Assembly: GCA_014191535.1 (NCBI GenBank) | Contig: BJHC01000026.1 | Location: 1-11,582, forward strand | From: Cyanobium sp. | GTDB lineage: Bacteria; Cyanobacteriota; Cyanobacteriia; PCC-6307; Cyanobiaceae | Length of the DNA stretch: 11,582 nt | Direction of reading: 5' to 3' | Shown here: piece by piece, positions 3,136 to 11,582 of the stretch | Layout of the letters: every line of letters starts with the position of its first letter | How positions within the stretch are numbered: position 1 is the first letter of the stretch | The notes under the pieces: generated by a model | Databases searched by the model: none | The model's input: only the letters and a program-made list of their open reading frames with translations | What the model was told of the DNA's origin: nothing | Program-made: the position numbers and the translations under genes

Positions 3136-3160
3136 GCCCCCGCTCCGGCGGGGGCTTTTT
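3136..3160 (+). terminator. intrinsic terminator of the PSRP-3 gene
   Basis: A perfect 8-base-pair stem, GCCCCCGC (3136-3143) with GCGGGGGC (3148-3155), encloses the tetraloop TCCG and is followed at once by TTTTT (3156-3160). It lies 9 bases after the PSRP-3 stop codon. Read from the minus strand, the A/T run precedes the stem and no U-tract follows, so it should not be an efficient intrinsic terminator for the operon arriving from the right. Confidence 0.93.
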
Positions 3161-3171
3161 GTTGGCCTCCC

Positions 3172-4131
3172 CTATTGGCGCGCCTTCAGCACCTGGTTGA
3201 AGCCGCTGGCGGTGATCAGCGCCGGCTGCGTGGCGGTGTCCACCACAAAGGAGCGCGATTCGCTCTGGGTGCTGCCATCGGGATACACGAACGTCACCAC
3301 CCCCTGCAGGGACACCACGGCGCCGCTGCGGCCGATCTCGCGCAGGTCTGACACGTTCACCCGTTGGAACTGGTTGAAGAAGGCCGGGTCGAACTGATCC
3401 GCGGCACCACCACCGATCAACTGCCGTGCCGCCTCGCCGTTGCCGTTGGAGAGATCGCTGTACAGCTGCTGCACCGTGGCGATGGCGTTGTCCAGGGCGG
3501 CCTGCTGCAGGTCTGGGGCCGGCGGCGGCAGCTGCGTGGCGGTGCTGTCGGGCTGGGGGCCGGGGGTGCTGGCTTGGTCCTGGGCGGCGGGCTGGGGCAG
3601 CAGCGGCAGCCCCTGACGGCTGAGCAGCAGCCAGGTGATCAGCCCGGCCAGCCCCACCGCCAGCACCCCGGCGAGGAACCCCAGGGCCGCCACCAACCCC
3701 TGCCCCGATGCCGGCGGGGCTGGTGGGGCCGGTGCGGCGAGCGAGGCTGCTGAGGGGGCTGGCGGTTCGGCAGCGGGCATGGCCGATTCCGCTTCCGCTG
3801 CTCCGCTGGGGCCCGCTTCCGCCAGGCCCAGCAGGCCCCGCAGCACCGCCTCCATGCGGGCGCAGATGGCCGGGGTGAACACGGGGTTGAGTTCCTGCTG
3901 GAGCCGCAGCAGCAGGCGCCCATCGGCGGGCAGGGGGGGCTGCTGGCTGAGGGCGTTGCCGCAGGCCGGTGTCATCACCAGGTATTTCAGGGCCGGCAGC
4001 AGGGCCCCCTGGCTGTCGCCGCAGTAGTCGCCCACCAGCGCCTGCAGGCGCCTTCCGTCGCAGCTCAGGCCGCGCTCCAGATCAGCGAGAACCTGGCGCC
4101 GCAGGGCGGCTCCCAGCTGGTGGTCGTTCAT
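3172..4131 (-). CDS. single-pass membrane protein of unknown function, last gene of the kinase/phosphatase operon
   Basis: A 319-residue protein that I do not recognise at family level. Residues 1-103 are a soluble, probably helical domain with several Cys residues (24, 37, 57, 90). Residues 104-143 are a low-complexity Ala/Pro/Ser linker. Residues 145-171 form one strong membrane helix. A second Pro/Gln-rich linker follows, then a compact C-terminal domain (about 208-319): a helix (AIATVQQLYSDLSNG) followed by alternating strand-like segments (VSLQGVVTFVYPDG, SRSFVVD). That pattern suggests an NTF2-like or IMS-like fold, which is inference. With no signal peptide ahead of the helix, the N-terminal domain is probably cytoplasmic and the C-terminal domain periplasmic. 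Its ATG lies 50 bases inside the PP2C gene, so it is co-transcribed with the kinase system and may be an output or sensor component. Confidence 0.85.
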   Translation of the reverse strand: MNDHQLGAALRRQVLADLERGLSCDGRRLQALVGDYCGDSQGALLPALKYLVMTPACGNALSQQPPLPADGRLLLRLQQELNPVFTPAICARMEAVLRGLLGLAEAGPSGAAEAESAMPAAEPPAPSAASLAAPAPPAPPASGQGLVAALGFLAGVLAVGLAGLITWLLLSRQGLPLLPQPAAQDQASTPGPQPDSTATQLPPPAPDLQQAALDNAIATVQQLYSDLSNGNGEAARQLIGGGAADQFDPAFFNQFQRVNVSDLREIGRSGAVVSLQGVVTFVYPDGSTQSESRSFVVDTATQPALITASGFNQVLKARQ

Positions 4132-5329
4132 CGGGCCGAGGGGGTGCCGCAGGCATCTTGCCGCCTGCGTCGCGCCAGAGGGTGGCCAGGTGCTGCTCCA
4201 GGGGTGGGCAGGCTCGCAGCGGGCTGCGCTGACTGCGGGCCAGCAGGGCGCCGAGGGGATCCCGCTCCGGGGCGGCCAGGAGCCGCTGCCCCAGGGTGGG
4301 ATCGCGCTGCAGCTGCAGCAGCTGGGCGCGGCGTGGGGTGAGGTTGGCCCGGATGCGGCTGGGGTCGGCGCAGAGGGCCTGCTGTTGCTGCAGCACGGGA
4401 TCGGGCCGGGGGGCGGGCCGCTGCGCCAGGCGGCTCCCCACCACCAGCGCCGTGGCGAGGGCCACAGCCCCGCTGCCCAGAGCGAGTGTCAGAGCGGCCC
4501 GCCGGCGCCATTGGCCACCGGGGCCCGGTTGCGCGCGCCGGCCGATGGCCAGGGAGACATCGTCACCACTGCCCTGGCGGGTGATCTGCTCCAGACCGTG
4601 CTCCAGCTGCTGGGGATCGTCCAGGTCGACCACCTGGCTGCACAGGGCCAGAAAATCGGCATCGCTGGCGCACGATTTGCGCACCCCATCGGTGCTCAGC
4701 ACCAGGCCCCGCAGCTGCGGCTGGGCTTCCAGGGGCTGCAGTTGGGCCCGCGGGGCGCACAGGGCAGCCGCCTGGGGCAGGCAGAGGCTGGCGGTGGCCT
4801 CCGCAGCGGCCCGGGCGCCGAGGCTCTCCTCCTGGCTGATCAAGGCTGCGTCCCCAGTGCGGTGGACGGCCACCAGGTCCCAGTCGCCCAGGCCCGTGCA
4901 GCCCCACCACTGCGGCGCCAGCAGCACCAGCCCCAGGGTGCAGCCGTAGGCCACCGGTTCCAAGGGGTCGGCGTTCTGGGGCTGGTGGCGCCAGTCGTCG
5001 GCGATCGCCGCCTGCCAGCGGCCCTGAATCGTGGCCGGCAGCCCCTCGCACAGCAGGTGCCGCCAGGTGGTGCTGTCGCCGAGGGGGGTGCGCTGCAGGG
5101 CTTCCGCGACGGCGCGTTTGGCCTCCCGGCAGGCCAGAGCACTGCCCCGATCGCTCAGCCAGGAGCGGCTGGAGCCATGGCCATCGGCCACCGCCAGCAG
5201 CTGCAGGGCTTCCCCGCTGGGGCCGCTGAGCTCGGCGCTGAGGCTGGTGTCCTGACAGGGTTTTCCCTGGCGGCGGTGGGCGGCGCCGATCACGCTGCAG
5301 GCCCGTGGCGCCAGCCAGGCGGGGGTCAC
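4082..5329 (-). CDS. PP2C-type Ser/Thr protein phosphatase with C-terminal membrane helix
   Basis: This 415-residue protein should remove phosphate from Ser/Thr residues, presumably opposing the kinase encoded two genes upstream. PP2C motifs in order: D27 after RRQGKPCQD, VADGHG with D49, the YGCTLGL block (128-134), GLGDWD (146-151), LSTDG with D214, and GSGDDVS with D256-D257. These retain the residues expected to bind the metal pair. The usual second Asp of the SDGxxD motif is missing (STDGVRKS). A membrane helix lies at about 279-300, followed by about 115 residues rich in Arg, Pro and Gln with no recognised domain. The start is GTG at 5329, whose last bases form a GTGA overlap with the vWA stop codon; an adjacent GTG at 5332 is also possible. 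Reading further upstream gives Arg/Gly-rich sequence antisense in character, so the longer frame is rejected. The 3' end overlaps the next gene by 50 bases. Confidence 0.9.
   Translation of the reverse strand: MTPAWLAPRACSVIGAAHRRQGKPCQDTSLSAELSGPSGEALQLLAVADGHGSSRSWLSDRGSALACREAKRAVAEALQRTPLGDSTTWRHLLCEGLPATIQGRWQAAIADDWRHQPQNADPLEPVAYGCTLGLVLLAPQWWGCTGLGDWDLVAVHRTGDAALISQEESLGARAAAEATASLCLPQAAALCAPRAQLQPLEAQPQLRGLVLSTDGVRKSCASDADFLALCSQVVDLDDPQQLEHGLEQITRQGSGDDVSLAIGRRAQPGPGGQWRRRAALTLALGSGAVALATALVVGSRLAQRPAPRPDPVLQQQQALCADPSRIRANLTPRRAQLLQLQRDPTLGQRLLAAPERDPLGALLARSQRSPLRACPPLEQHLATLWRDAGGKMPAAPPRPDERPPAGSRPAAPGSR
5001..5008. repeat. HIP1 octamer GCGATCGC
   Basis: Third copy of the HIP1 octamer, inside the PP2C gene. 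Confidence 0.7.
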
Positions 5330-6054
5330 CACACCAGGGGGCCGACGTCGTCGGTGGGATCCAGCACGGTGGGCGGCAGGTCCGGCAGGGGGATGTTGCC
5401 GCCGCTGCTGTCGCCCTGCACCTGGCTGGCGGGCATGGACGCCGCCCCCACCACGGCGGTGGAAGCCCACTGGATGTACTGGGCCAGGCTGGTGGCGTTG
5501 CTGGCCTGCAGCGGGCGCCGCGGCGAGCGTCCACCGCCGGGCGGTTCGGGTCCGATGAACTGCTGCAGCACCTCCAGATCGGCGTCGTGGCCGAGGGCGA
5601 TGGCCAGGCGCACGGCCTTCTGGGCCCAGGGCTGACGCATCAGCGTGGCCAGGCCCGTTTCGAAATCATCGGTGGGCTGGCCATCGGAGATCAGCACCAG
5701 CACCGGCGGCAGGGCCCGCTCCTCCATGGGGGGCGACTGCAGCACCTCCGCCAGCCGCTCCAGGGCCTCGCCCATCGCCGTGATGCCGCCGGCCTCCAGA
5801 TCGCGCCATTGCAAGTGGTCCACCGGTGTGGGCTGCTCCAGGTGCCATTCCGCCCGGTCGGCGAAGCGCAGGGCGCGCACCAGCACCCGTGCCTCCGGGT
5901 TCTCGCGGGCCACCTCCGCCATGCCCGGCAGGGATTGGCGGATCGCCTGGTTGAGGGCCTGCATCTTGCCCTGGGCGGCCATGGAGCCGGAGCAGTCGCA
6001 GAGGTAGATGAAATGCAGCGGCCGGTTGCTGAGCCGAACGTTGGGGAAGGGCAT
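5326..6054 (-). CDS. von Willebrand factor A domain protein (TerY/YegL-like)
   Basis: A 242-residue soluble vWA protein with a full metal-ion-dependent adhesion site: D20-x-S22-x-S24 (CDCSGSM), T92 in GGITAMG, and D124 in LISDGQPTDD. There is no signal peptide or membrane helix, so it should act in the cytoplasm. The short N-terminus leading straight into the first strand (RPLHFIYLCDCSGS) and the LISDGQPTD strand resemble TerY and E. coli YegL. The last 40 residues are Pro/Gly/Ser-rich and probably unstructured. In TerY-P / YegI-K-L systems the vWA protein is encoded with a PP2C and a kinase, and the same trio is contiguous here. ATG at 6054 is well supported by a Shine-Dalgarno sequence 9 bases upstream. 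Its exact role (scaffold, or binding of phosphorylated partners) is not shown by sequence. Confidence 0.93.
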   Translation of the reverse strand: MPFPNVRLSNRPLHFIYLCDCSGSMAAQGKMQALNQAIRQSLPGMAEVARENPEARVLVRALRFADRAEWHLEQPTPVDHLQWRDLEAGGITAMGEALERLAEVLQSPPMEERALPPVLVLISDGQPTDDFETGLATLMRQPWAQKAVRLAIALGHDADLEVLQQFIGPEPPGGGRSPRRPLQASNATSLAQYIQWASTAVVGAASMPASQVQGDSSGGNIPLPDLPPTVLDPTDDVGPLVW

Positions 6055-6063
6055 GGCCGAGGG

Positions 6064-6069
6064 TCCTCC
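6064..6069 (-). promoter_or_regulatory. Shine-Dalgarno GGAGGA for the vWA gene
   Basis: The minus strand reads GGAGGA followed by 9 bases and then the ATG at 6054. It sits in the 18-base gap after the kinase stop, the only internal junction of the operon with no overlap. This is the clearest ribosome binding site in the operon and fixes the vWA start. Confidence 0.8.
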
Positions 6070-6072
6070 GGT

Positions 6073-7407
6073 TCAGGGGCGCAGCACGGTGATCGGGCCG
6101 GCGCCGCTGCGGAGCTGCTGCAGGGCCGCGAGATTACAGGTTTTGCCGGGGGCCAGGTCGATCGTCTGGCCGTTGCTGAGTTGGCCCTGCCAGGTCTCGG
6201 CGCTGAGGTTCTGCAGCCCCAGCAGCTGGGGATCCTCCGGGTGGCTCACCAGCCGTGCCAGGGGCTGGTGAAGGGTGATCGGCCCCCAGGGATCGGCGTG
6301 GTGCCGGTGCAGTTCGTTGCCAACGGCTGCGGTGACGCGGCCGTTGGCCAGTTGCAGCTGCACCGGGGGCGGCAGGGGCGTGCCGCACTGCCAGCAGGCA
6401 CCGGGGGCGGCGGGGTTGGGAAAGGTTTCCTGGCCGCAGTGGGGGCAGAGCTGGCGTTGGTCGAGGCAACGGCTCAGCTGTTGGGTCCACTGGCCCGTGA
6501 GGGGCCGCCGATCCGGATGGCGCAGGCCCGGCCCGAAGCACTGCTCAAACAGCTGCTGCAGCGGCCGCGGGTAAATCGGCCAGGTCACCACGGCGGCGGC
6601 GTGCTCCTCGGGGTGGGGCCGGTTGGCGGGGTCGTTGGGATCAAAGATGAACAGCGCCTCCTCGCCATAGAGGCGGCGGCGGGCCGGTTCATCCAGGCAG
6701 CGGATCGCCAGCTCCCGCTGGCCGCGGAAGGGGTCATGGCGGGTGATCAGCCGGAAGATCAGCACCGCCAGGGAGAACAGGTCGCTGCTGGCACCCGGTT
6801 TGGCCTGCCCGAGCAGCACTTCTGGGGCCATGAAGCCCGGGGTGCCCAGCACGGAGCCGCCCCCCTGGCCGTCGATGTCGACGTTGTCGTTATCGCAGAT
6901 CAGCACCCGGCCACTGCTGGGCTCCAGAAACAGATTGCCCAGGGAGATGTCCTTGTAACAGAGCCCCTTGAGGTGCAGGTGGTGGAAGCCATCCGCCAGG
7001 TGGAAGCAGGCCCGCAGCACGTTCTGGAGGCTGATCTCCAGCTGACCGCCCGCGTGCTGGTGGGCCCCCACGAAGCCCGCTGGCCGCAGGGCCATCAGGT
7101 AGCCGACCCCGGCCTTGGGGTGGCGGATCAACGGCCGGCTGGCCGCCGTGGGCTCCAGCAGCGCCAGGGGCCAGAGGAAGTCGCCGTTGGGGGCCCCCAG
7201 GGCGATGCTCTGGCGCAGGCGCCGCGGCAACTGCGGGTCCCGTGCCAGGCAGGCGGGCAGGTACCACTTCAGGGCCAGTTGCTCACCGCCGCAGCTCACC
7301 GCGTACACCTGCCCCTGGGTACCGCCCCCCAGGGCCCGCTGGATCTGCAGCGGTTGATCCAGCCCCTCGAACCGCAGGCTGGCGCCCTCCGGCAGCAGGC
7401 CGGTCAT
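6073..7407 (-). CDS. Ser/Thr-kinase-like protein with zinc ribbon and C-terminal beta domain
   Basis: A 444-residue soluble kinase-fold protein, presumably the phosphate donor enzyme of the operon. It has a glycine-rich loop GGGTQGQV (27-34), the ATP-anchoring K47 (LALKWY), a catalytic loop YKDISLGN (D153, N158) in place of HRDxxxxN, a CDNDN stretch (D172) in place of DFG, and GTPGFMAPE (188-196) as activation segment end. The helical C-lobe runs to about 315. A zinc ribbon follows: C321-x2-C324 and C338-x2-C341. Residues 349-444 look all-beta, with a pattern (GLQNLSAETWQG, a Gly-Gln turn, LAPGKTCNL) compatible with an FHA-like or Ig-like fold; this is inference. ATG at 7407 overlaps the FHA stop as ATGA. 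Frames extending upstream of it are antisense of the FHA gene's codons. It resembles the kinase of TerY-P / YegI type systems more than receptor-type PknB kinases: there is no membrane helix and no PASTA repeat. Confidence 0.9.
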   Translation of the reverse strand: MTGLLPEGASLRFEGLDQPLQIQRALGGGTQGQVYAVSCGGEQLALKWYLPACLARDPQLPRRLRQSIALGAPNGDFLWPLALLEPTAASRPLIRHPKAGVGYLMALRPAGFVGAHQHAGGQLEISLQNVLRACFHLADGFHHLHLKGLCYKDISLGNLFLEPSSGRVLICDNDNVDIDGQGGGSVLGTPGFMAPEVLLGQAKPGASSDLFSLAVLIFRLITRHDPFRGQRELAIRCLDEPARRRLYGEEALFIFDPNDPANRPHPEEHAAAVVTWPIYPRPLQQLFEQCFGPGLRHPDRRPLTGQWTQQLSRCLDQRQLCPHCGQETFPNPAAPGACWQCGTPLPPPVQLQLANGRVTAAVGNELHRHHADPWGPITLHQPLARLVSHPEDPQLLGLQNLSAETWQGQLSNGQTIDLAPGKTCNLAALQQLRSGAGPITVLRP

Positions 7408-8150
7408 GGGGTGTCCGCCGCCTGGCCGATGGCCTTGCGAATGCCGTTGCGGTGGGCGAGGGCCGTGCGGCGGTTGGCAAAGCTGTGGCGCAGGGCGCGG
7501 CCGTCCCGCAGCACCAGCACCAGACGGTGTTGCTTGCGGGAGCCCAGCAGGATCCAACCGGCCAGGGCCGCCAGTTGTAGGGGCCAGAACAGCAGCGGGA
7601 ACGGCAGCAGCAGCAGCCCCCCCAGACACAGCAACAGCCACCAGCTGAAGATGTGGGGGTGCTGGGGCAGGCTCTGCACCGCCGCCGAGCGGATCGTGGC
7701 CACCGCCACGCTCTGCCCAGCCACCGTCACGCTGGTGGGTGGGCGCACCGGGGCCGCGGCGGCGACGGGCGCCTCAGCAACCGGAGGCGTTGGCGAAGGC
7801 GCGCGCTCTGGTGTTGGCGGGGCGGCTGAGGCTGCCTTGGCCTGGAGTTCGAACACCAGCACCGGCCCCTGGGGCCCCAGGCGGATCTCGTCGCCGTCGT
7901 CGAGGCGGCGGCAGTGCTGCACCCGCTGGCCCTCCAGGAAGGTGCCATCGCGGCTCTGCCACTCGCACACCAACCAGCCCTGGCTGCGGGAGAACCGCAC
8001 CACGGCGTGGTGGTCGGACACCTCCCCCTGGCTGGCGAGGCAGAGGCGGTTGCTGCTGGCCCGGCCGATGGTGAGCGGTTGTGCCGGATCCAGGGGGGCG
8101 CTCTTGCGCCGGTCGCTGGCCAGCACCAGCCGGGCGGTGGGGGCGCTCAT
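7404..8150 (-). CDS. FHA domain protein with C-terminal membrane hairpin
   Basis: A 248-residue protein. The N-terminal forkhead-associated domain (about residues 5-103) has the conserved IGR (28-30), SDHH (45-48, with H48 as the structural histidine) and SRDGTFLEG (66-74, matching the SxNGTxxNG turn with Asp in place of Asn). R30 and S45 are the residues that normally hold phosphothreonine. A Pro/Ala linker (about 104-140) leads to a hydrophobic region of about 36 residues (169-205) with a central PFP kink, likely a two-helix hairpin. A short cytoplasmic tail, basic and rich in Arg and His, ends the protein. It should present a phosphothreonine reader at the inner face of a membrane. ATG at 8150 overlaps the preceding stop as ATGA; an in-frame GTG at 8177 would add nine residues not typical of the domain. 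It probably recruits a protein phosphorylated by the adjacent kinase. Confidence 0.92.
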   Translation of the reverse strand: MSAPTARLVLASDRRKSAPLDPAQPLTIGRASSNRLCLASQGEVSDHHAVVRFSRSQGWLVCEWQSRDGTFLEGQRVQHCRRLDDGDEIRLGPQGPVLVFELQAKAASAAPPTPERAPSPTPPVAEAPVAAAAPVRPPTSVTVAGQSVAVATIRSAAVQSLPQHPHIFSWWLLLCLGGLLLLPFPLLFWPLQLAALAGWILLGSRKQHRLVLVLRDGRALRHSFANRRTALAHRNGIRKAIGQAADTP

Positions 8151-8422
8151 GGTTCCCCGCGGCGGCGGCGCCACCACAGCTGCCAGTCATCGCGCAGGTC
8201 GTTCCACCAGCCCCCATCCCCCTGGCGCTGGGGCACCACCCGGCCCGGGAACAGCAGCGCCTTGCTGGCCAGGGCCAGGGCGATCAGCACCATCAGCAGC
8301 AGCACCCAGCCCGGGATCGCCCCCACCCAGGTGGCGGCGAAGAAGGCGCGCAGGGCATACAACCCGATGGTGAACGCCAGCCAGAGCCGGAAGGGTTCCC
8401 AGGGGTCCCGCTGGCGCTGCAC
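8147..8422 (-). CDS. small two-helix membrane protein, first gene of the operon
   Basis: A 91-residue protein of unknown function. Two hydrophobic helices (about residues 12-31 and 36-58) are joined by a short turn, with a Trp/Arg-rich tail (GWWNDLRDDWQLWWRRRR) that is likely cytoplasmic and amphipathic. Its stop overlaps the FHA gene's ATG by 4 bases, so the two are translationally coupled and it may be a membrane partner of the FHA protein, whose hydrophobic hairpin it resembles in layout. The start is a GTG at 8422 with no clear Shine-Dalgarno sequence; no better start is seen within the frame. It is the 5'-most gene of the operon and faces the PBP gene across the divergent gap. Confidence 0.75.
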   Translation of the reverse strand: MQRQRDPWEPFRLWLAFTIGLYALRAFFAATWVGAIPGWVLLLMVLIALALASKALLFPGRVVPQRQGDGGWWNDLRDDWQLWWRRRRGEP

Positions 8423-8442
8423 CGCTTGGCCGCAAGAAGGCT

Positions 8443-8459
8443 GGCCGTAGCCTATGGCC
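8443..8459. promoter_or_regulatory. 17-base near-palindrome, candidate shared operator
   Basis: GGCCGTAG (8443-8450), central C, CTATGGCC (8452-8459): seven of eight positions pair symmetrically, the exception being 8447/8455. It sits inside the 92-base gap between the operon's GTG (8422) and the PBP gene, 21 bases before the operon start. TAGCCTAT is the most A/T-rich stretch in the gap and could also belong to a -10 element. A competing inverted repeat, AGGCT (8438-8442) with AGCCT (8449-8453), overlaps it. No regulator can be named. Confidence 0.35.
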
Positions 8460-8514
8460 GGGCCGCAGCACCCGCCTGAGCATCCCCTCGCGCTTCGATC
8501 CGCTCCTGGCCCGC

Positions 8515-10755
8515 TTGGCGCCCCCCGCGATGCGCCAGGCCTGGCTGCAGCTGGCCCGGGCCGCTTGGCAGGGGCCCTGGACTGAGCGTCCCGCCGCCAT
8601 CCGTGCCGCCTGGGGCCCCCTCACCGAGCGCCAGGCCCTGGTGGAACTCTGGGTGGGCGGGTCGCGGATCACCGCCCTGCCCCTCGGTGACCAGCGGGTG
8701 CGCTTGGGCCGTGATCCCAGCTGTGAGCTGCCCCTGGAGGATCCCAGCCTCAGCCGGGTGCACGCCATCCTCGAGCGCCAGAGCCCCAGCGACCGCGACT
8801 TCAGCCTCGAGGACTTCAACTCCGCCAACGGCCTGTTCCATCGCGATCGGCGCATTCGTGCCATTCACCTGCGCCACGGCGATGTGGTGCGGCTGGGGTC
8901 GCCGCTGAAGGATCAGGCGCCGGAACTGCGCTACCACCAACCCCGCAGTCCGCTCGAGCAGGCGGTGCATCGCCTGGGCCTGGCGGCCCTGGCGGGTTCA
9001 GCGGTGCTGGTGAGCGGCATGCTGCTGGCGGCCAGCATCGGCGGCGGCTCCCGCATCCGCTCGATCTCCGGGCCGGTCAAGATTTTTGCCGCCAGCGGCC
9101 AGCAGATCGATGGCCAGCAGGGTTCCGCCACGGCCCTGCCCAGCCTGGGGGCCTATCCCCTGCACCTGCGGCAGGCGCTGATGGCCTCGGAGGAGGCGCG
9201 CTTCGGTTGGAACAGCGGCATCGATCTGTTCGGCACCCTGCGCTCCGCGCTGCTGGGCACCGGCGGCGGCAGCGGTCTCACCCAGCAGGTGGCCCGCATG
9301 GTGTACCCCGATGTGGGCCGCGATCTGAGCCTCACCCGCAAGCTGCGGGAGCTGTGGGTGGCTCTGCAGCTGGAGGTGGGCTTCAGCAAGAACCAGATCC
9401 TCAAGCTGTATCTGGATCGGGCCTACCTGGGGTTGGGCACCGAAGGCTTCGAGCAGGCGGCCCAGCTGTATTTCCGCAAGTCGGCCACGGATCTGGATGT
9501 GGCCCAGTCGGCCTTCCTGGTGGGTCTGCTGCCCAGCCCCAATGGCTACAGCCCCTGCAATCCCGACGACCCCGGTGCCGGGCTGGAGCGGCGCAACCTG
9601 GTGCTGAAGCTGATGCACGAGCAGGGCTGGCTCAGCGATCAGGCCCTGATCGATGCCCAGCGGCGCCCCCTCAACATCGACCCCTCCGCCTGCCGGGAGT
9701 CGAGCTACAGCAGCTACCCCTTCTTCAGCGATTACGTGATCGGGGAGCTGGAGGGCACCCGTTTCGGCCTCGACCTCAGCGGCCCCGATGCCGGCGGCAA
9801 CTACGCGGTGATCAGCACCATCCAGCCGGCCCTGCAGCAGCTGGCCCAGGAGCAGCTCAAACGGTTTCTGGAGGGGCCCGCCGCCGCCGCGGGCCTCACC
9901 CAGGGGGCCCTGATCACGGTGAACACCGAAACCGGCGCGATCCTGGCCTATGTGGGGGGCGGTGATTACGGCCGCTCCAGCTTCGATCGGGTGCAGGCCC
10001 TGCGCCAGCCGGGCTCCACCTTCAAGCTGTTCCCCTACCTGGCGGCCCTGGCGGCGGGGGTCTCCCCCAGCGCGTCCATCTCCTGTGCGCCCCTCAGCTA
10101 CGTGGCGGGTTGCCGTGGCGGTGGCGGCAGCACCAGCGTGGCCCAGGGGCTGGCGGCGTCCGAAAACGTGGTGGCGCTGCGGCTGGCGGAGCGGGCCGGC
10201 CTGGCACAGGTGGTGAAGCTGGCCCGCCGCCTGGGGATCACGACCCCCCTGGAGCCCGACTTCAACACCATGCTGGGGGGCCGCGAAACCTATCTCTACG
10301 AGCTGGCGCGGGCCTATGCGGTGGTGGCCAACGGCGGCCTGTCCGTGCCGATGCACGGGGTGAGCCGCATCTACGACCTGGGCATCTGCCAATCGGTGAA
10401 GAGCCTGGATCGCTGTCCGCCCCGGGGAATCACGGTCCCGATCGGCGAACGGGCCCGTCAGCTGATCCCCGCCGACGTGGCCGCCAGCATGGACCAGCTG
10501 CTGGCCGGGGTGGTGCAGGGGGGCACGGGCCGGGCCGCGGCGGTGGTGCCCGACGCCCGCGGCAAAACCGGCACCACCAACAACGGCGTCGATGTGTTGT
10601 TCATCGGCTATTCCCCATCGATGAAGCTGCTCACCGCCATCTGGATGGGCAACGACGACAACCGCCCGGCGGCCGCCGCCAGCGGTGCCCTGGTGGCGGA
10701 GCTCTGGGGGCGGTACATGCAGCGGGTGGCTAGCGCAGCGCCCCCAGCCAGCTGA
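8515..10755 (+). CDS. class A penicillin-binding protein (GT51 + transpeptidase) with N-terminal FHA domain
   Basis: A 746-residue bifunctional peptidoglycan synthase. Residues about 42-135 form a cytoplasmic FHA domain (LGRD with G65-R66, SRVH 80-83, FNSANGLF 101-108). A membrane helix lies at about 155-176. The GT51 glycosyltransferase has the catalytic Glu in ASEEARF (E226, usually ED), GGSGLTQQVAR (251-261), RKLRE with E279, KNQILKLYL (292-300) and AFLVGLLPSPNGYSP. The transpeptidase has S501-TFK, SEN (549-551) and KTG (684-686). All key residues are present, so both activities are plausible. The conserved His of the first GT51 motif is replaced (WNSGID). The start is unsettled: TTG at 8515, ATG at 8530, or CTG at 8476, because the frame upstream of 8515 still reads like protein. 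The FHA domain would bind a phosphothreonine protein inside the cell, possibly one made by the divergent kinase operon. The stop overlaps the opposite gene by 26 bases. Confidence 0.95.
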   Translation: MAPPAMRQAWLQLARAAWQGPWTERPAAIRAAWGPLTERQALVELWVGGSRITALPLGDQRVRLGRDPSCELPLEDPSLSRVHAILERQSPSDRDFSLEDFNSANGLFHRDRRIRAIHLRHGDVVRLGSPLKDQAPELRYHQPRSPLEQAVHRLGLAALAGSAVLVSGMLLAASIGGGSRIRSISGPVKIFAASGQQIDGQQGSATALPSLGAYPLHLRQALMASEEARFGWNSGIDLFGTLRSALLGTGGGSGLTQQVARMVYPDVGRDLSLTRKLRELWVALQLEVGFSKNQILKLYLDRAYLGLGTEGFEQAAQLYFRKSATDLDVAQSAFLVGLLPSPNGYSPCNPDDPGAGLERRNLVLKLMHEQGWLSDQALIDAQRRPLNIDPSACRESSYSSYPFFSDYVIGELEGTRFGLDLSGPDAGGNYAVISTIQPALQQLAQEQLKRFLEGPAAAAGLTQGALITVNTETGAILAYVGGGDYGRSSFDRVQALRQPGSTFKLFPYLAALAAGVSPSASISCAPLSYVAGCRGGGGSTSVAQGLAASENVVALRLAERAGLAQVVKLARRLGITTPLEPDFNTMLGGRETYLYELARAYAVVANGGLSVPMHGVSRIYDLGICQSVKSLDRCPPRGITVPIGERARQLIPADVAASMDQLLAGVVQGGTGRAAAVVPDARGKTGTTNNGVDVLFIGYSPSMKLLTAIWMGNDDNRPAAAASGALVAELWGRYMQRVASAAPPAS

Positions 10756-11582
10756 CCAGGGCCCAGCCCAGTCCGCCCATTAGCCCCCAGGCCCAGCTGG
10801 AACTCAGCAGCCGCTGCAGGGGCGTGCTCTCGTCATCCCCCTGGCGTGGCAGTTGCCAGCCCAGTTGCAGGGCTCCGTACACCAAGAGCAGCACCCAGGC
10901 GGGAATGCTCAGCCCCAGGCTGGAGAAGCCCAGTTCGCGCCAGCGCAGCAAGCTCAGCCCCGCCGCCAGGGCGATCAGGGCGCTGACCGCGCCGCTGGCC
11001 CCACTCCAGCGCCGCTGCACACCCCACCGCTGGGCCAGGGCGGCGGCGGGGGCCAGGCAGGCCAGGGCCGTCAGGCAGTAGCGCAGCACCACATCGCTCA
11101 GCTGCAGGGGGGAGTTGCCCAGCAGCAGGGCCAGCAGGATCAGGTTGGTCACCGCTTCAGGGCCGTTGGCGTGCAGCCAGGGGTTGCTGAGCCAGCGCCA
11201 GGCCTGATGGGGGTCGCCGCTCTGGCTGCTGTCGAGCCACCAGCGCCGCGGCAAGCCTTTGAGCGGGCCCAGGCTCAGGGCCTGCAGCAGCCCCAGCACC
11301 ACCACCAGGGCCATGCCGCCGCTCCAGCCCCAGCCCTCCAGCAGTTCCCGATCGAGGGCGCTGCCGGCCCAGCAGAGCACCAGGGCACCGCTGGCGGCCA
11401 GGGCCAGGCCTGGGGCCAGGGCCCGCCAGCCTTCATCCTTCGCTGCCGGCGCGGGGGCCGTGGTTACCCCCGGTGCTGGGGCCGCGGCAGTGGCCGGCGC
11501 TTCGGCCCCCAGCCCCGTGGCCGCCTCCAGCAGATCCAGCAGTTCCCGCTCGATGGCGGGGGCATAGGTGCGGCTCAGTTGC
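10730..11582 (-). CDS. rhomboid-like intramembrane protein, N-terminus outside window
   Basis: The frame is open to the right edge (284 codons including the stop), so the true start is not in the window; a GTG at 11380 lies inside the first hydrophobic segment and is not the start. After a soluble stretch (LSRTYAPAIERELLDLLEA) and an Ala/Pro linker come about seven hydrophobic segments. WRWLSNPWLHANG...N matches the rhomboid region ahead of and in TM2 (His at 11171-11173, Asn at 11144-11146; the second His of HxxxxHxxxN is Glu, 11156-11158). GASG (10991-11002) matches the catalytic serine motif. The final helix, where active rhomboids have HxxGxxxG, reads WAWGLMGGLGWA (within about 10736-10805) with no His. 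It may therefore be an inactive rhomboid-like protein that binds membrane clients. The rhomboid call is moderate; the membrane-protein call is safe. Confidence 0.75.
   Translation of the reverse strand, partial: QLSRTYAPAIERELLDLLEAATGLGAEAPATAAAPAPGVTTAPAPAAKDEGWRALAPGLALAASGALVLCWAGSALDRELLEGWGWSGGMALVVVLGLLQALSLGPLKGLPRRWWLDSSQSGDPHQAWRWLSNPWLHANGPEAVTNLILLALLLGNSPLQLSDVVLRYCLTALACLAPAAALAQRWGVQRRWSGASGAVSALIALAAGLSLLRWRELGFSSLGLSIPAWVLLLVYGALQLGWQLPRQGDDESTPLQRLLSSSWAWGLMGGLGWALVSWLGALR

Follow-up and report, generated by a model that had tools for sequence, protein, structure and literature searches.

A TerY-P-type kinase, vWA and phosphatase triad paired with an FHA-bearing penicillin-binding protein in Cyanobiaceae, a candidate phospho-switch on cell-wall synthesis

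Triads of the TerY-P type, which comprise a protein kinase, a vWA protein and a PP2C phosphatase, are widespread, yet their control targets have largely been guessed, mostly as stress or defense. They have been reported beside restriction systems and as a defense against T7-like phages (PMC11090510 and PMC7699616). A kinase with a zinc ribbon and a beta domain also occurs with PP2C and stand-alone vWA proteins in actinobacterial GAP1-N2 systems, as described in a 2020 eLife paper (PMC7159879). Two further actinobacterial cases concern FHA proteins: the seven-gene pstP cluster, for which PMC6554272 gives rodA, pbpA, pknA/B, and fhaA/B, and Rv1747, an FHA-FHA-ABC transporter that is phosphorylated by PknF according to a title cited in PMC6213207. 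Here we describe an operon of six genes, A to F, on an 11,582-nucleotide stretch of Cyanobium sp. DNA (contig BJHC01000026.1; the whole stretch is referred to as the window), in which kinase C, vWA protein D, and phosphatase E make up such a triad and which is nearly always accompanied by a divergent gene for a class A penicillin-binding protein (PBP) carrying an FHA domain (FHA-PBP). The triad architecture is itself already known, since GAP1-N2 systems contain kinase/PP2C/vWA sets; the operon is a new variant, distinguished by its near-exclusive pairing with FHA-PBP, by two further membrane proteins (A and B), and in part of the genomes by a member (F) with a helical domain that we label DYCG. 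In the open-licence papers searched, we recognized no description of the operon or of a pairing between FHA-PBP and TerY-P proteins; according to PMC2176072, a 2007 survey of cyanobacterial kinases omitted strain WH5701, among others, as its genome was then unreleased.

We favor, with moderate confidence, the view that this triad controls the PBP by phosphorylation and forms a reversible switch on cell-wall synthesis, in a module of seven genes (six where F is missing). Since the partner of the triad is almost always this one enzyme, whose chemistry is known, kinase control of the PBP via its FHA domain is a testable proposition. The FHA-PBP gene (8515..10755, plus strand) encodes an N-terminal cytoplasmic FHA domain (8698..8898, plus strand; Pfam and alignment) followed by a membrane helix at residues 154-172, and is separated from gene A by a divergent intergenic region of 92 bp (8423..8514, from the coordinates). 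This is the presumed promoter region; a sigma-70 consensus scan of it returned no site. Of 120 genomes of the order, 19 had kinase C; a profile search of 399 genomes found it in 63, spread over 7 of 44 genera, and both counts include the source genome. A PBP search over the 399 genomes (threshold, E of 1e-125; matches listed down to E of 6.5e-134) found an FHA-PBP ortholog, at least 57% identical, in 62 of the 63 kinase-bearing genomes. Among the matches listed, none of the kinase-free genomes had this ortholog, and those represented had a more distant PBP of 41-46% identity. All 61 kinase/FHA-PBP pairs on the same contig lay within 5 kb of each other on opposite strands, and one further pair was split over two contigs. 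Fisher's test gave a value of 1.6e-72 for this co-occurrence, a figure that ignores shared ancestry.

FHA matches were also counted in 50 genomes, 19 carriers and 31 non-carriers. B and the adjacent PBP were found in all 18 carriers other than G005, and 15 of the 18 also had a distant FHA-PBP; the only other type of FHA match in these 18 was one FHA-FHA-ABC transporter in G038 (FHA-FHA-ABC-ABC2; L182:1780-4155), which sits elsewhere in the genome than the operon. Among the 31 non-carriers, FHA matches were absent from 24; each of the other 7 had a single match, located where the distant FHA-PBP lies. G005 is the one exception among the carriers: A, B, and the PBP are missing at its locus, and both FHA matches of the genome fall in a 785-residue FHA-FHA-ABC-ABC2 protein (L036:3347-5704) some 5 kb away from the kinase.

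The FHA domain of the PBP is well preserved. Its residues GR, SRxH, and SxNG, which we take to play the usual roles at the phosphothreonine site, are intact by alignment in the window protein and all 17 relatives; the same proteins retain the transpeptidase motifs SxxK, SxN, and KTG. The glycosyltransferase motif is altered, to RFGWNSG(I/L/V)D, in all of them (window 8515-10755; L057-L071, L038, and L039). In this first motif FHA-PBP has an Asn in place of a His, a residue expected to matter for activity, that is conserved in the other proteins aligned, namely 7 paralogs with an FHA domain and 4 further PBPs. Gene B (7404..8150, minus strand; Pfam, hydropathy, and alignment) also encodes an FHA domain (Pfam, E of 3.7e-14), followed by a linker, a two-helix membrane hairpin at about residues 170-204, and a short C-terminal segment; the hairpin and the segment are conserved in the alignment, and the C terminus matched DUF6232 at an E of only 0.023. 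In an alignment of 14 of the 18 B proteins, the FHA-site Arg was present in 9, the Ser in 12, the Asn in 4, and all three in 4. The window protein has the Arg and the Ser with Asp in place of Asn, a change that need not abolish binding; substitutions in several genomes are Lys or Cys for Arg and Asp or Gln for Asn. With the site intact in every PBP relative and whole in just 4 of the 14 B proteins, it is probably the PBP that consistently reads the phosphate mark; in most of these genomes B, judged by its residues, may serve more as a scaffold than strictly as a reader.

The conservation of the gene set was followed in 18 loci fetched from genomes of the order and in 39 further Cyanobiaceae-type loci from a genome collection; the two sets derive partly from the same genomes, so their counts are not additive. 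The scan of the collection with the kinase retained the best 80 of 567 loci; labels of metagenome-assembled genomes (MAGs) in it can be wrong. Genes A-B-C-D, adjoining the divergent FHA-PBP, recurred in 17 of the 18 fetched loci; E was present in every one (tblastn found it in 17, the L033 copy being cut by the contig end, and a profile recovered it in L032 at 601 bits). Recurrence at this level argues that the arrangement is not due to chance. In the collection, B and the divergent FHA-PBP were found in 37 of the 39 loci and A, the vWA gene, and the PP2C gene in 36 each. The three loci lacking the vWA and PP2C genes break off within the kinase gene or shortly beyond it, and L130, one of the two lacking B and the PBP, begins about 0.6 kb before the kinase. 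Gene F was found in only 8 of the 18 fetched loci and is rejected as a core gene of the operon; L033, among the 10 without it, ends before the F slot. It was matched in 15 of the 39 collection loci (in L125 and L127 weakly and at another place); the slot lies beyond the end of several contigs. L030 has a transaldolase-family gene in the slot, and inspection by eye showed similar open reading frames (ORFs) at further loci of the same genus. Gene content and order, their conservation, the intact motifs, and the near-exclusive co-occurrence with FHA-PBP are all direct observations. The closest named relative of the kinase is 85% identical and comes from the MAG record Cyanobacteria bacterium M_DeepCast_200m_mx_001; uncultured Synechococcus, Vulcanococcus, and other MAGs follow at 75-72%. 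The source is probably a picocyanobacterium akin to Vulcanococcus. Contigs labeled Bifidobacterium breve (L129) and Microcystis elabens (L110) carry the Cyanobiaceae operon with FHA-PBP, and these labels look wrong.

The operon had originally been predicted from its letters as six ORFs on one strand with almost no spacing, encoding FHA, kinase, vWA, and PP2C proteins. All six indeed lie on the minus strand within 3172-8422, with overlaps of 4 nucleotides at A/B, B/C, and D/E, an overlap of 50 at E/F, and a gap of 18 at C/D, and B, C, D, and E have the corresponding Pfam matches. The starts of B, C, and E were our choice, as the ORF list has longer ORFs for these, and in most relatives the genes likewise overlap or have short gaps. 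The predicted kinase zinc ribbon and complete metal ion-dependent adhesion site (MIDAS) were borne out by the alignments described below. Three or four membrane-tethered components had been proposed: hydropathy identified membrane segments in A, B, E, and F, with C and D free of them, while the PP2C anchor proved not to be universal. The boundary of six genes was too short, as the divergent FHA-PBP belongs to the conserved unit; co-occurrence of the six families in related genomes held for A to E, and F, which does have the membrane helix ascribed to it, is a lineage-specific DYCG/NTF2-like member.

C (6073..7407, minus strand) is a soluble Ser/Thr kinase with a zinc ribbon and a C-terminal beta-rich domain (Pfam Pkinase, E of 9.8e-16). 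K47, D153, N158, and D172, the predicted catalytic residues of a Hanks-type kinase, are invariant in 13 aligned rows, as is APE, with YKD for HRD and DND for DFG; the zinc ribbon CxxC...CxxC (C321, C324, C338, and C341) is kept in 36 rows. An FHA-like fold for the C-terminal domain was considered and received no support from profile comparison (hhalign probability 0.78, score 14.3, against a maximum of 17.7 in 60 shuffles); the fold search covered residues 11-340, and its results were filled by kinase domains. Nor is C the sole kinase of carrier genomes, several of which have further Pkinase matches over the cut-off. The source's own assembly, which is incomplete (84% complete, 1.94 Mb, 439 contigs, 5.9% contamination), has one Pkinase match.

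The vWA protein D (5326..6054, minus strand; Pfam and alignment) matched vWA families at E values of 4e-6 to 1e-5, and its MIDAS, DxSxS...T...D, is invariant in 14 rows; against solved structures there was one weak match, 8s05 (E of 0.0013). Its final 23 residues, NIPLPDLPPTxxDPxDDVGPLVW, are conserved and follow a variable stretch, and the final Trp is shared more widely. FHA domains prefer an Asp at the third position after the phosphothreonine. Of 36 Cyanobiaceae vWA proteins, 33 have a TxxD within the last 45 residues (shuffle expectation, 23%); for distant vWA proteins the count is 9 of 33 (shuffle expectation, 21%). Being at chance level in distant triads, it is not an ancient feature. 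Thr229 of D (codon 5368..5370, minus strand), the hypothetical phosphothreonine in this context, is the best candidate for an FHA ligand, and no more than a candidate.

The phosphatase E (4082..5329, minus strand; Pfam, alignment, and hydropathy) matched PP2C_2 at an E of 2.1e-28, with DGHG and GSGDD invariant in 12 rows. One membrane helix (residues 279-297) leads to an extracytoplasmic tail (window 4085-4430) that is absent in 2 of the 12 rows and has both Cys of a pair in 9 of the 10 rows that have it; such a tail could possibly serve as a redox or envelope sensor. L026 and L036 have short PP2C proteins that lack the membrane anchor.

Protein A (8147..8422, minus strand; ORF list, 10-row alignment, and hydropathy) is a membrane protein of 91 residues that probably forms a two-helix hairpin with both ends cytoplasmic, a topology in which residues 40-58 alone passed the hydropathy cut and the first helix was read by eye. 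The window A and F proteins had no Pfam match, and none of the 120 listed A homologues, out of 181, had a Pfam domain. Two of those listed (P0027 and P0099) have 'RsiW-degrading membrane proteinase PrsW' as their source name. F (3172..4131, minus strand; profile comparison and predicted structure) consists of a six-helix DYCG domain (residues 1-100), a membrane helix (146-172), and an NTF2-like extracytoplasmic domain (208-316), in a predicted structure with a mean predicted local distance difference test score (pLDDT) of 80.9 and a predicted template modeling score (pTM) of 0.41.

At minimum, a write-erase-read circuit needs a kinase, a phosphatase, and a reader, the parts represented here by C, E, and a membrane enzyme with an FHA domain. 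In the scheme that we infer, which extends to phosphorylation, docking, the direction of regulation, and the signal sensed, the leading candidate phosphosite would be the conserved TxxD in the C-terminal tail of D. The FHA domain of the PBP would bind the phosphorylated partner in the cytoplasm, and binding would recruit the synthase to the site of the complex or activate it there. Anchoring and scaffolding of the complex would fall to A, B, and, in genomes that have it, F; E would reverse the signal, and its Cys-pair tail, together with the NTF2-like domain of F, could report the state of the envelope.

Relatives of the triad extend far beyond this family. Near-full-length relatives of C from outside it, 36-41% identical, among the best 80 of 567 loci came from records of many phyla, labeled Chloroflexi, Anaerolineae, Pyrinomonadaceae, Clostridiales, Caryophanon, Halanaerobacter, Methylococcales, Verrucomicrobia, Acidimicrobiia, Ignavibacteriales, Armatimonadetes, a Methanomicrobiales MAG, and other cyanobacteria. 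The vWA and PP2C genes both shared the kinase strand in 33 of 41 distant loci, some spaced by several kb, with the order kinase-vWA-PP2C in 18 and vWA-PP2C-kinase in 15. None of the 41 had A. Two had a PBP, both weak matches, and three had an FHA neighbor: Pegethrix, with an FHA protein and an FHA-PrsW protein (L143:7473-8978), and Chamaesiphon (L151:16368-18872) and a Thermomicrobiales MAG (L162:1-2211), each with an FHA-FHA-ABC-ABC2 protein, as in the Prochlorococcus-like genome G005 (L036:3347-5704). Among the three, only L143 has TxxD in its vWA tail. Profiles of C, D, and E scored 74-98 bits (kinase), 41-101 bits (vWA), and 17-34 bits (PP2C) against other cyanobacterial triads and 19, 21, and 26 bits against YegI, YegL, and PphC of E. 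coli (E of 1e-4 to 1e-6, database of 4300). The operon had been called a cyanobacterial relative of TerY-P: C-D-E is of the TerY-P type, but such triads are not specific to cyanobacteria, and YegI, PphC, and YegL are far more distant.

The commonest companion is a DYCG protein, present in 31 of the 41 distant loci. The DYCG domain, the helical N-terminal part of F of about 100 residues, has no Pfam match; elsewhere it is mostly N-terminal on varied repeat proteins beside triads of several phyla (L141-L180; e.g., L143:4168-5217, L149:11348-12718, and L166:4843-6366). Compared with these, the N-terminal domain of F gave an hhalign probability of 95.3 and a score of 48.7, where 200 column shuffles reached at most 20.2; a plain hidden Markov model search was weak. 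The DYCG profile reported neither of two F-like proteins, L036:6643-7389, which matched the F profile at an E of 9.3e-8, and L026:13428-14603, recognized by eye. Near the triad in these two loci are also COP23 proteins (Pfam, both loci) and trypsin-like proteins (Pfam, in L026) (L026:13428-16086 and L036:890-2589). A more far-reaching proposal is that the triad is a dedicated phospho-switch for a class A PBP whose glycosyltransferase site is altered, acting through a phosphorylated PPTxxD tail of the vWA protein as ligand and with the cell wall as its output in this family, and at the same time a generally portable unit whose outputs are marked by FHA (PBP, ABC transporter, PrsW protease) or by DYCG (ankyrin, WD40, leucine-rich repeat, MORN, NTF2-like). 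We advance it tentatively, as a possibility. The DYCG domain and the recurring FHA-FHA-ABC neighbor offer handles on triad partner proteins in other phyla.

Several observations weigh against a phospho-switch on the PBP. The co-occurrence with FHA-PBP comes from one family and is phylogenetically non-independent, and the divergent arrangement could reflect shared transcription only. Three of 36 relatives lack the TxxD of the vWA tail, which in distant triads occurs about as often as by chance and is absent from two of the three with an FHA neighbor; the unusual glycosyltransferase motif may mean that the PBP is not a normal synthase. FHA neighbors are also rare beside distant triads compared with DYCG proteins (3 versus 31 of 41), and this, together with the two weak PBP matches there, fits a different explanation, in which FHA-PBP is merely a co-regulated neighbor on a shared divergent promoter region and the triad, A, and B regulate other targets. 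We regard that as unlikely, though worth keeping in mind: the PBP has an intact FHA domain of its own, within the order it was found, among the matches listed, only with the triad (62 of 63 carriers), and A is found in no distant locus. The original prediction, a stand-alone membrane signaling complex of six proteins with B as phospho-reader, draws on the tight packing of A-F and the membrane segments in A, B, E, and F. It seems to us distinctly unlikely, given that 10 of 18 loci (including one that ends short of the slot) yielded no F and that L030 uses the slot otherwise, that the PP2C anchor is absent in 2 of 12 rows, and that B, which does have the predicted FHA domain, has a partial site in 10 of 14 rows, leaving the PBP the likelier reader.

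The operon might, finally, be an anti-phage or stress system as proposed for other TerY-P triads, whose composition it shares and which have been reported in defense contexts (see PMC11090510 and PMC7699616). Among PADLOC models, TerY scored 19.6 bits for D, and C matched defense kinases, best mad6 at 63 bits (E of 6.3e-18), then PD-T4-6 and others; the mad6 match is a further point against a cell-wall role. PADLOC found nothing for A, B, E, or F, however, and C scored 27.7 with NCBIfam MAD6, against a cut-off of 460. The window neighbors of the operon are pepP, HAD, PSRP-3/Ycf65, FHA-PBP, and rhomboid genes. PSRP-3, a gene that identifies the stretch as cyanobacterial, lies on the same side in 14 of the 18 fetched loci, unlike what is expected of a mobile defense island. 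A terminator-like hairpin (3136..3155, plus strand) lies 3' of the PSRP-3 gene, between two convergent gene ends, and the rhomboid-family gene (window 10730-11380), convergent with the PBP, was found in 30 of the 39 collection loci. With these conserved housekeeping surroundings, defense is the less likely role although the kinase scores against defense-kinase models, and we judge it very improbable. Phospho-control of the PBP stays our preferred reading, and the near-constant pairing suggests that a signaling module of stress and anti-virus systems has been re-used here for the control of cell-wall growth.

Set against the described systems, the locus resembles TerY-P triads in its three proteins, complete MIDAS, kinase-zinc ribbon fusion, and adjacency, and each profile finds its E. 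coli counterpart. It differs in its kinase-vWA-PP2C order, in the additional A, B, F, and FHA-PBP, and in that no Ter, restriction, defense, tellurite, or DNA-processing genes were found among the scanned window proteins; linkage to tellurite, DNA-processing, or restriction genes is an associated trait of TerY-P and not strictly a defining one. Unlike YegI, C is soluble and lacks the membrane hairpin and the long helix-hairpin-helix C-terminal part (read by eye in YegI). The kinase architecture and the three-protein set match those described for the actinobacterial GAP1-N2 systems, whereas no GAP1 GTPase was seen in the window and the outputs differ. The FHA-FHA-ABC proteins near the triad in G005, Chamaesiphon, and the Thermomicrobiales MAG recall Rv1747 and PknF; the window has none. 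The nearest working analogue is the actinobacterial pstP cluster (PMC6554272), which likewise brings together a kinase, a PP2C protein with a membrane helix, FHA proteins, and a PBP in one conserved cluster. Here, in contrast, a vWA protein is present, the PBP is of class A rather than class B and itself bears the FHA domain, the kinase is soluble, and neither a PASTA kinase nor RodA was found among the eleven scanned window proteins. The likeness to PknB-PstP-FhaB-PbpA is one of function, and as a unit the two are not homologous. If the proposed switch is real, cyanobacteria would have reached a kinase-phosphatase-FHA-PBP wiring like that of Actinobacteria with a different kinase family.

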